The position numbers and the translations under genes are program-made. Below the pieces are notes generated by a model. It was not told the DNA's origin. It saw only the letters and a list, made by a program, of their open reading frames with translations, and ran no database searches. DNA of 64,000 nt, from contig JAFZHY010000002.1 of the NCBI GenBank assembly GCA_017554615.1, positions 62,001 to 126,000 on the forward strand. Reading direction: 5' to 3'. Below are positions 33,229 to 49,895 of this stretch, in pieces. The DNA is from Clostridia bacterium. GTDB lineage: Bacteria > Bacillota > Clostridia > UMGS1840 > HGM11507. Position 1 is the first letter of the stretch; each line of letters begins with the position of its first letter.

Positions 33229-33497
33229 TTTTTATAAACTAAAAAAGCGCATTTACCTGCCCTAAATTATAGGACGAGTAATATGCACCCGCGGTACCAC
33301 CTATATTACCGTTTTAAACAAAACGGTCTCTCTTAACTGTTTACGCACAGTTTACACGGCGCACCTACTGATTTTAAAAAAACGTTCAGATTGCGGCTCG
33401 AAAGTGTTATTCATATAATCTCAACTGCCTGTTTTCCACTGCCACAGGCTCACTGGAAGCGAACTATTATATTACTTCTCTTTGTCATCGCCTTTAC
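33229..33497 (-). promoter_or_regulatory. T-box riboswitch, asparagine specifier
   Basis: A leader of about 270 nt on the minus strand. It holds the T-box core GGTGGTACCGCG (33301-33290). A terminator hairpin with T6 occupies about 33285-33241. In the specifier loop the sequence GAATAACAC carries AAC (33408-33406), an Asn codon. Uncharged tRNA-Asn would stabilise the antiterminator and switch on asnS-asnA. Confidence 0.95.
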
Positions 33498-38424: not shown

Positions 38425-39672
38425 TTATTCTTCAGTTTCTTCTTCTTTTATTCTTACCACTTTTATAAGTGCTACACGGTGAGAATCTGTTTCCAGAACG
38501 GAAACCTTAAGTGTTTTAAACTCAAAATTATCGCCTTCTTCAGGAATTTTCCCAAGACATTCCATAACCCATCCACCGACAGATATACTTTCTGATTCGG
38601 CTTCAATGTCAAAGAAATCACAGAAATCTTCAAAGTTAACGAGCCCTTCCACCTTGTATGTATCAACATCAATTTCGTGGAAGTTTTCAACTACTTCGTC
38701 ATGTTCGTCCCATATTTCTCCGACAAGTTCTTCTAAAATATCCTCCATAGTAACAATACCAAGTGTTCCGCCATACTCGTCGATTACAACTGCTATATGA
38801 GATTTATTGGTTTGAAGAATTTTTAACAGGTCGTTAATTTTTTCGCCCTTTTGAATAAATAAAGGTTTTGTCATAAGATTTTTAACATCTTTTTTGGTTA
38901 TACCGTTTTCTGAGTAAAAATCTTTTAAGTGAATTATACCTACTATATCGTCAATATTTTCATTATATACCAAAAGCCTTGAAAACTGAGTTTCTTTAAA
39001 CTTTCTTGCAATTTCAACCTTATCGTCTTCTAAAGATACTGCTTCCAAGTCTACCCTGTGGGTTAAAATATCTTCTGCGCAAAGGTCTTTAAATTCAATA
39101 GCATTACGGATAAGTTCACTGTCATCATCATCAAGTGAACCCTCCTGCTGAACTTCCTCTACAAGCATAATAAGTTCTTCGGAAGACATTCCAGCATTTT
39201 CTTCCACCTTAAATATTTTTGAAATAAGTTTTTTCCACTGCGAAAAAATATAATTTACAGGTGTTAAAATTATTATTAAAAAGTTAATAAACGGTGCTGC
39301 AAACATTGCAAACTTTTCAGGAGAATCTTTTGCCAGACTTTTAGGCGAGATTTCCCCGAAAATAAGAACAAGCAATGTGATGACCACGGTTGCTATCAAT
39401 GCTCCGTAAAAAGGGTTAAGTGCTATAAAATATACAGTAGCAACAGATGAAACACCGATATTGACAATATTGTTGCCTATAAGAATGGTGGATATCAAAC
39501 TGTCATACTTTTCTGAAAGTTTAAGTGTAAGCCCTGCTCTTTTATCCCCTTTTTCTGCCATTGATTTAAGCCTTGTTTTATTAACAGAAGTAAAGGCAGT
39601 TTCAGTTGCAGAAAAAAACGCAGACATTAAAATTAAAAAGCCTATAATTACTATATACGTCGAATCGCTCAT
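38425..39672 (-). CDS. CNNM/CorC (DUF21-CBS-CorC_HlyC) membrane transporter, 'hemolysin' family
   Basis: 415 residues. The N-terminal DUF21/CNNM domain has about four hydrophobic segments (1-165), including the family SATETAFTSVNKTRLK. A CBS pair lies at about 200-325, ending in VIDEYGGTLGIVTMEDILEELVGEI. A C-terminal CorC/HlyC domain follows (about 335-412). Relatives such as CorC, MpfA and human CNNM are linked to Mg2+ (or Co2+) transport, mostly efflux. Expression appears to be controlled by the leader at 39673-39858. GGAGA precedes the ATG. Confidence 0.93.
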   Translation of the reverse strand: MSDSTYIVIIGFLILMSAFFSATETAFTSVNKTRLKSMAEKGDKRAGLTLKLSEKYDSLISTILIGNNIVNIGVSSVATVYFIALNPFYGALIATVVITLLVLIFGEISPKSLAKDSPEKFAMFAAPFINFLIIILTPVNYIFSQWKKLISKIFKVEENAGMSSEELIMLVEEVQQEGSLDDDDSELIRNAIEFKDLCAEDILTHRVDLEAVSLEDDKVEIARKFKETQFSRLLVYNENIDDIVGIIHLKDFYSENGITKKDVKNLMTKPLFIQKGEKINDLLKILQTNKSHIAVVIDEYGGTLGIVTMEDILEELVGEIWDEHDEVVENFHEIDVDTYKVEGLVNFEDFCDFFDIEAESESISVGGWVMECLGKIPEEGDNFEFKTLKVSVLETDSHRVALIKVVRIKEEETEE

Positions 39673-39717
39673 TTTTATTTTTTCTCCTATTAGTTAAGTT
39701 AAATTATTTTTACACGC

Positions 39718-39755
39718 AAAAAAGCACGCCTATATATAAATCTATATAGGTATGC
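39718..39755 (-). terminator. Attenuator terminator in the CNNM/CorC leader
   Basis: On the minus strand GCATACCTATATA (39755-39743) pairs with TATATAGGCGTGC (39736-39724) and is followed by T6 (39723-39718). It begins 8 bases after the leader-peptide stop codon. TATAAAT over that stop codon (39768-39762) can pair with ATTTATA (39741-39735) in the terminator, forming a weaker alternative. Confidence 0.75.
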
Positions 39756-39763
39756 TATGCCAT

Positions 39764-39829
39764 TTATAGTAACAAATAATAAAACAACAATTCAGTATTA
39801 GTGTTAGTATCGCACTCGTCTGAATCCAT
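39764..39829 (-). CDS. Leader peptide with acidic N-terminus, 21 aa
   Basis: A 21-codon reading frame that begins Met-Asp-Ser-Asp-Glu-Cys-Asp, continues with Thr/Asn repeats, and ends with a hydrophobic LLFYYLLL tail. GAGGA stands eight bases before its ATG, and the promoter lies about 30 bases further up. It is followed at once by a terminator and then the CNNM/CorC gene. Dense acidic residues right after the start are the feature that destabilises translating ribosomes at low Mg2+ in MgtL of Enterobacteria. A role as a translation-coupled sensor is inferred. Confidence 0.7.
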   Translation of the reverse strand: MDSDECDTNTNTELLFYYLLL

Positions 39830-39864
39830 TTTTATTATCCTCGCTTCCTCATTTATTTTAGGTT

Positions 39865-39893
39865 ATTGTATCATACAACTAAAAAAATGTCAA
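39865..39893 (-). promoter_or_regulatory. Promoter of the CNNM/CorC leader
   Basis: TTGACA (39888-39893), 17 bp and TACAAT (39865-39870) on the minus strand; start expected near 39858. Confidence 0.8.
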
Positions 39894-49684: not shown

Positions 49685-49699
49685 TAAAATTTTAAAAAA

Positions 49700-49895
49700 T
49701 ATACCCACTTGTGCCGTTACAATCTTTATAATAACCTGCTCTCGCAGGTGGGTACTCGCCCGACGACATTACTGTTTCCCCTACAGCCATCTGCAAAAGC
49801 AGACAGGGGGCATACAAACCGAAGTCGGAGACAAAATTCCCTTATTATTATCAACGGTTAATATAACAGATTGATGACGGACACAGCAGGTATTT
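49700..49895 (-). ncRNA. ssrS: Probable 6S RNA
   Basis: A non-coding stretch of about 190 nt that folds into one long interrupted rod on the minus strand. The closing stem joins 49876-49892 with 49702-49718. AGATTG/CAATCT follows (49868-49873 with 49720-49725). On the 3' side of the central bubble is a small CCTGC/GCAGG hairpin (49735-49748) next to GAGTACCCACC. The apical part is GC-rich with CTCCGAC/GTCGGGCGAG pairing. This is the architecture of 6S RNA, the sigma-A RNA polymerase inhibitor. It lies 10 bases after the SLH gene; no clear promoter was seen. Confidence 0.7.

Follow-up and report, generated by a model that had tools for sequence, protein, structure and literature searches.

The closest described systems are short translated leaders of enterobacteria and one attenuator of E. 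coli. In the mgtL-mgtA system of Enterobacteria, a short acidic/proline leader precedes a Mg2+ transporter gene and ribosome stability is the proposed sensor (PMC11282234, PMC12421838); MgtL controls an importer through RNA rearrangement and Rho, and turns it on at low Mg2+. Where acidic residues close to the start codon are neighbours or separated by a single residue, early ribosomes are reported to pause, stall or dissociate; MgtL is one such case (PMC11282234) and mgtQ another (PMC8092293). In Salmonella, control of a Mg2+ transporter gene requires Asp2 and Glu5 of the small ORF mgtQ (PMC8092293), which frees the ribosome site for translation of the importer gene mgtB, without a terminator. 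With regard to export, bacterial CNNM proteins have been linked to Mg2+ export (PMC8242095), and the CorC-domain proteins MgpA (YoaE) and CorC (YbeX) of Salmonella and E. coli protect against excess Mg2+ (PMC12421838). Expression of Salmonella corC and mgpA increases at high Mg2+, the leader YoaL is required for MgpA translation, and the regulation of corC and mgpA has been called unclear (PMC12421838). Unlike the leaders described below, YoaL overlaps its gene and has no described intrinsic terminator; the membrane domain of MgpA is TerC, not CNNM.

A different wiring is found in pyrBI of E. coli, where the pyrL leader ORF ends within or past an intrinsic terminator whose hairpin is prevented by the advancing ribosome (PMC5021804, PMC4824070), with UTP sensed by RNA polymerase pausing. 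This terminator is suppressed by an advancing ribosome, and a nascent-chain stall upstream raises termination (PMC5021804). The construct with EF-P-dependent polyproline leaders, in which nascent-chain trouble upstream of the pyrL hairpin led to intrinsic termination, was an artificial one in E. coli (PMC5021804). Distance matters in E. coli: termination drops from ~90% to <10% when translation stops 5 bp ahead of the terminator, and there is no effect beyond ~30 bp (PMC4824070). Among the papers found, none described leader-based regulation of bacterial CNNM/CorB/CorC Mg2+ exporters, and the open full-text literature, which includes work on MgtL, mgtQ, YoaL and EttA, does not describe acidic leaders ahead of CNNM/CorC or P-type ATPase genes for Firmicutes. 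The newness of the module reported here is provisional.

A leader ORF and terminator before a CNNM gene

In the window (the whole 64,000-nt stretch of DNA that was analysed), all elements of the locus lie on the minus strand, and the promoter, ribosome site, 21-codon ORF, terminator and CNNM/CorC gene of the original prediction were all present as described. The promoter (TTGACA-17-TACAAT; 39893-39865) consists of a -35 hexamer (39888..39893) and a -10 hexamer (39865..39870) with a 17-nt spacer and an extended TG, matching the consensus at 11 of 12 positions. The 5' UTR of ~28 nt, which would be too short for a riboswitch aptamer, contains a GAGG ribosome-binding site (39839..39842) 9 nt 5' of the leader ATG at 39829. 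The leader ORF (MDSDECDTNTNTELLFYYLLL; 21 codons, stop TAA; 39764..39829) carries Asp/Ser-rich codons 2-7 (DSDECD; 39809..39826), the proposed sensor, and about 8 nt past its stop codon begins a terminator hairpin (AGCATACCTATATA-GATTTA-TATATAGGCGTGCT; 39723..39756; -14.6 kcal/mol) that is followed by a T6 tract (39718..39723). The gene downstream (38425..39672) encodes a 415-aa protein with a CNNM domain, a CBS pair and a CorC_HlyC domain (Pfam PF01595, PF00571, PF03471), whose relatives in the PDB include 7m1t (archaeal CorB) and 4hg0 (CorC). From its sequence it is a predicted Mg2+/cation exporter.

We interpret this locus as a candidate transcription attenuator in which a leader peptide reads the passage of ribosomes through an Asp/Ser-rich or Asp-Glu-Pro-Pro start and which would turn the exporter on at ample Mg2+, a reading to which we assign a probability of roughly 0.6.

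Conservation and coding constraint of the leader

CNNM relatives were taken from whole genomes and named genome contigs; upstream sequence of 150 nt or more was available for 109 loci. Across Clostridia, 72 of these 109 have a leader ORF that starts Asp-rich and is preceded by a ribosome site, and leader-bearing CNNM genes extend to ~50% protein identity. Examples are MDSDECDSNTNTELFFYYLLL in a sister species (L003), MDSDSSDDYDNCY (L007, L035), MDSDDGDYPANT (L032), MDGDSSDDDTAN (L047) and MDADSSEDDTAN (L044), whereas ten leaders have a DEPP flavour (e.g., VDEPPPSPNS in L109, LDEPPPSPEPN in L102 and MDEPPRDNF in L087 and L103). In the 320 nt upstream of CNNM genes, acidic-start short ORFs with a ribosome site occur at 1.23 per kb, 66x the density of 0.0185 per kb in the remainder of these loci (both strands), showing that the arrangement in the window is more than chance. 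Near-consensus promoters (at least 10 of 12 matches) were located 30-69 nt 5' of the leader ATG for 58 of 70 leaders, compared to 2.6% of shuffles. The Asp/Ser leader clusters strongly on the CNNM tree (8 changes vs 34 expected). The DEPP flavour, with MDEPP in place of MDSD, requires at least four changes, implying that the shared property is a destabilising chemistry and not one sequence.

The variation among leaders is that of a translated peptide, as had been proposed. The same leader positions use varied codons (GAC/GAT for Asp; AGT/AGC/TCA/TCG/TCT for Ser), dN/dS is ~0.34 in close gapless pairs, and 24 independent leader pairs differ at 52, 42 and 74 sites at codon positions 1, 2 and 3, respectively (p=0.002 for the third-position excess). 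The frame and its Asp-rich N-terminus are thus conserved while the nucleotides vary, and the suggested alignment of homologous leaders gave conserved acidic codons with predominantly synonymous change, with weaker acidity in one clade.

Residues 2-8 of the 62 non-DEPP leaders comprise 41% Asp, 27% Ser, 10% Gly, 5.5% Cys and 3.9% Glu, with only three basic residues among 434. Leaders contain on average 3.1 acidic residues in frame compared to 0.1 in each of the other frames, and these residues are adjacent or one apart in 52 of 62 leaders. Residues 9-20 are unlike this start, being Asn-rich and then hydrophobic. As in MgtL, acidic and/or proline residues stand right after the start, but this is weak in one clade that keeps only Asp2 and Asp7/8 with Cys, Ser or Pro at residue 4 (MDSCGSTDGG, MDSPSSD); because of this clade, acidity alone is not the rule. 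The Asp:Glu ratio in residues 2-8 is 10:1, and published ribosome destabilization neither requires nor explains this tenfold preference. Our guess is that it comes from avoidance of ribosome-site-like GAGGAG or from a direct role of an Asp-x-Asp nascent chain. In some leaders the start is similar to the first half of an EF-hand loop (MDSDGDGIS, L070). This likeness and the 10:1 ratio are the grounds for the idea that an Asp-x-Asp-x-Ser/Gly nascent chain might bind the cation itself, which we consider unlikely.

Several CNNM genes that lack a leader themselves start with MDSDS, MDSS or MNSDS. Such starts, often MDSDS (L016, L020, L089, L154, L157), resemble a destabilizing N-terminus that is reported for E. 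coli CorC/YbeX (as cited within PMC12421838), and may act directly on translation of the exporter itself; an acidic outside N-terminus could instead have a role in membrane topology. At another locus (L086), a further leader (MDDTDSDAAPFC) with a hairpin and T-run lies ~1.79 kb upstream of the CNNM gene, and may precede an operon composed of a 154-aa membrane protein, an AI-2E-family-like protein and then CNNM.

Terminator geometry and RNA structure

A terminator was detectable for 65 leaders, and in every one of them the ORF ends no more than 14 nt short of the hairpin's first base or continues further. Stop codons lie before the hairpin in 8, inside it in 26 and after it in 31 leaders, and five of the 31 that pass through continue to the gene start. 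When the bases after codon 8 were shuffled (2000 trials), a mean of 40 and a maximum of 53 out of 65 leaders stayed open this far; the alternative frames did so in 43 (+1) and 6 (+2) of 65. The frame through the hairpin varies between groups, and for this reason the conserved hairpin letters do not serve coding. RNAalifold of 44 leaders found one conserved structure, the terminator, with compensatory changes in 10 of 11 pairs. The analysis supports the proposed terminator attenuator before a CNNM/CorC gene, and likewise the first of its two suggested outcomes, in which a ribosome near the stop codon would block the terminator and switch the gene on at high Mg2+, since stop codons are suitably placed in 65 of 65 leaders.

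In the second suggested outcome, TATAAAT (39768-39762) would be covered by a ribosome that has come to the end of the leader and would otherwise pair with ATTTATA (39741-39735) as an antiterminator, so that expression is on at low Mg2+. The pairing exists in the letters of the window, as a 7-nt complement, and in a weaker form in the sister species (L003), but it is not conserved in the family: no alternative or antiterminator hairpin was conserved among the 44 leaders, a stop codon inside or beyond the hairpin leaves no such region free in 57 of 65 leaders, and the sign would be unsuited to an exporter. We consider this version very unlikely. The lack of an antiterminator bears equally on classical amino-acid attenuation, in which the leader would respond to the charging of the tRNAs for Asp, Ser, Asn or Cys. 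Runs of these codons do precede the terminator, as this explanation would have it, yet the residues change (DSD, GDG, CSC, DEPP) under a constant architecture, and cation exporters rather than amino-acid genes lie downstream, so we give little credence to a trp-type attenuator.

A metal- or ligand-binding RNA, with conserved letters that read as a peptide by chance, is the interpretation we find hardest to credit. In its favour, relatives share the GACAGT letters and those of the terminator; against it stand the ~28-nt 5' UTR, the terminator as the sole conserved structure, the synonymous variation and the constrained open frame. No Rfam family matched the window leader at the gathering threshold, two matches with E>1 being of chance level, and Rfam riboswitches including M-box and yybP-ykoY were rejected, as none had a covariance-model match. 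The whole genome of the window's organism contains no M-box Mg2+ riboswitch. Elsewhere in the window, on the minus strand, Rfam models place a T-box leader (RF00230) at 33267-33497 and a 6S RNA (RF00013) at 49698-49895. Compared with dinucleotide shuffles, the fold of the full 199-nt window leader is somewhat more stable (z -2.3). In the window and the sister species, the region of the ribosome site and start codon forms a stem of ~10 bp with codons 16-19 (GATAATAAAA/TTTTATTATT; 39840-39831 with 39785-39775, minus strand), and this stem is not conserved across the wider family.

Under the ribosome-passage reading, RNA polymerase would make the ~28-nt 5' UTR, ~20 codons and then the intrinsic terminator. 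A first ribosome that moves past codons 2-8 would end at, inside or beyond the 5' arm of the terminator and keep it single-stranded, allowing transcription of the exporter gene, whereas a ribosome that pauses or dissociates in codons 2-8, as on MgtL at low Mg2+, would let the hairpin form and transcription stop. Whether the ribosome pauses or falls off, regulation would have the same sign: ample Mg2+ would allow expression of the exporter and scarce Mg2+ would prevent it. The parts that we infer are ribosome fall-off, the high-Mg2+-on polarity and the role of Mg2+ as signal; plentiful Mg2+ is probably the condition in which ribosomes pass the peptide and the exporter turns on.

As an overall type, the best reading by analogy would be MgtL-type sensing joined to pyrBI-type wiring with the sign reversed. 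The module resembles pyrBI in a leader ORF that extends to or through the terminator (65 of 65) and in the absence of a competing antiterminator hairpin (44 leaders), but the sensor would be the nascent Asp/Ser-rich peptide. Like mgtL it precedes Mg2+ transporter genes, here CNNM/CorC genes plus P2A ATPases. It differs from mgtL in that the target gene families are others and encode exporters, the intrinsic terminator acts directly, no rearrangement is conserved (alternative structures governing Rho-dependent termination were not found, the intrinsic terminator alone being conserved) and the predicted sign is reversed.

RNA polymerase of Bacillus subtilis is reported to outrun ribosomes, uncoupling transcription from translation. 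If such uncoupling applied in Clostridia, pyrBI-type occlusion would be weakened. We see about even chances that these leaders form a previously undescribed class of nascent-peptide attenuators, which would control a divalent-cation export regulon in gut Clostridia and turn it on at high Mg2+ via terminator occlusion. Such a class, if true, would imply working transcription-translation coupling in these Firmicutes. The module also offers natural test pieces, from Firmicutes beyond B. subtilis, for the pace of ribosomes relative to RNA polymerase close to promoters.

Targets, taxonomic range and the signal

We searched 16, 51 and 197 genomes of three orders using a covariance model for the module. 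At E<=1e-6 there were 36 hits, a few of them loci used to build the model, and 35 of the 36 precede exporter-type genes; the sole non-exporter hit (L185) has no acidic leader. Three families make up the exporter-type targets: the window's CNNM subfamily (CNNM-A), a paralogous subfamily (CNNM-B) and P2A-type cation ATPases. The CNNM-B proteins are 27-35% identical to the window's subfamily and share 50% average identity among themselves, and their leaders include MDGSDSNAADRS, MDSIDEDTN and MSDDDSDSSN. Leaders of the P2A-type ATPases read MDDADSSDADRSN or MDDGDRSNTYY, with the stop codon abutting the hairpin, and a pattern search added one more ATPase case (L213, MDDSDSSNNNN). The arrangement predicted for a CNNM/CorC gene was accordingly confirmed and proved broader than stated, as it includes the second CNNM subfamily, the P2A ATPases and the MDEPP flavour. 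UTP-sensitive polymerase pausing as at pyrBI is not expected here, and no pyrimidine gene was found among the targets. An ordinary translated small ORF without sensing, with a terminator that merely reduces basal expression, leaves unexplained the biased composition, the geometry and the restriction to exporter genes across many genera, and is highly improbable.

The identity of the targets bears on the signal. The same switch could respond to the state of ribosomes or translation factors (EF-P, EttA-like ABC-F, L31, antibiotics) or to Ca2+/Mn2+, with Mg2+ as one input. The P2A ATPases are closest to PMR1/SERCA-type models and their nearest solved relative is the Listeria Ca2+ pump LMCA1, and enterobacterial acidic leaders are modulated by EttA and L31 (PMC11282234, PMC8092293), both of which speak for such a signal. 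On the other hand, most targets belong to the two CNNM subfamilies, a family tied to bacterial Mg2+ export (PMC8242095), and no translation-related gene was found among the targets, making this alternative possible but rather unlikely. The ATPase targets suggest that the signal may not be Mg2+ alone and could include Ca2+ or the general state of translation.

A single copy of the module is present in the genome of the window. We saw no module beyond the class, as a phylum-wide scan of 299 genomes (E<=1e-4) returned two known class members. Weak model hits (E>1e-4) were mostly terminators without a leader. A strict leader/terminator pattern gave 16 hits in 391 genomes of the class, several of them by chance, and a fixed-spacing MDEPP pattern, searched in one family, gave nothing useful.

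The module is a concrete and widely conserved candidate for the regulation of CNNM/CorB/CorC exporters. It would extend sensing by ribosome destabilization from enterobacterial importers to exporters of Clostridia with the opposite wiring, and join two CNNM subfamilies and P2A ATPases in one predicted regulon.

Further leaders were observed before CNNM-B genes. At one locus (L210), a leader (MDADEGDGNNAFYYLLL) lies ~110 nt before the gene, with no detectable terminator near the gene start, and is possibly a translational variant. Two model hits (L195, L200) retain conserved leader letters (CCGATCATGC) with an unclear frame and a non-acidic composition, and possibly represent another leader type.
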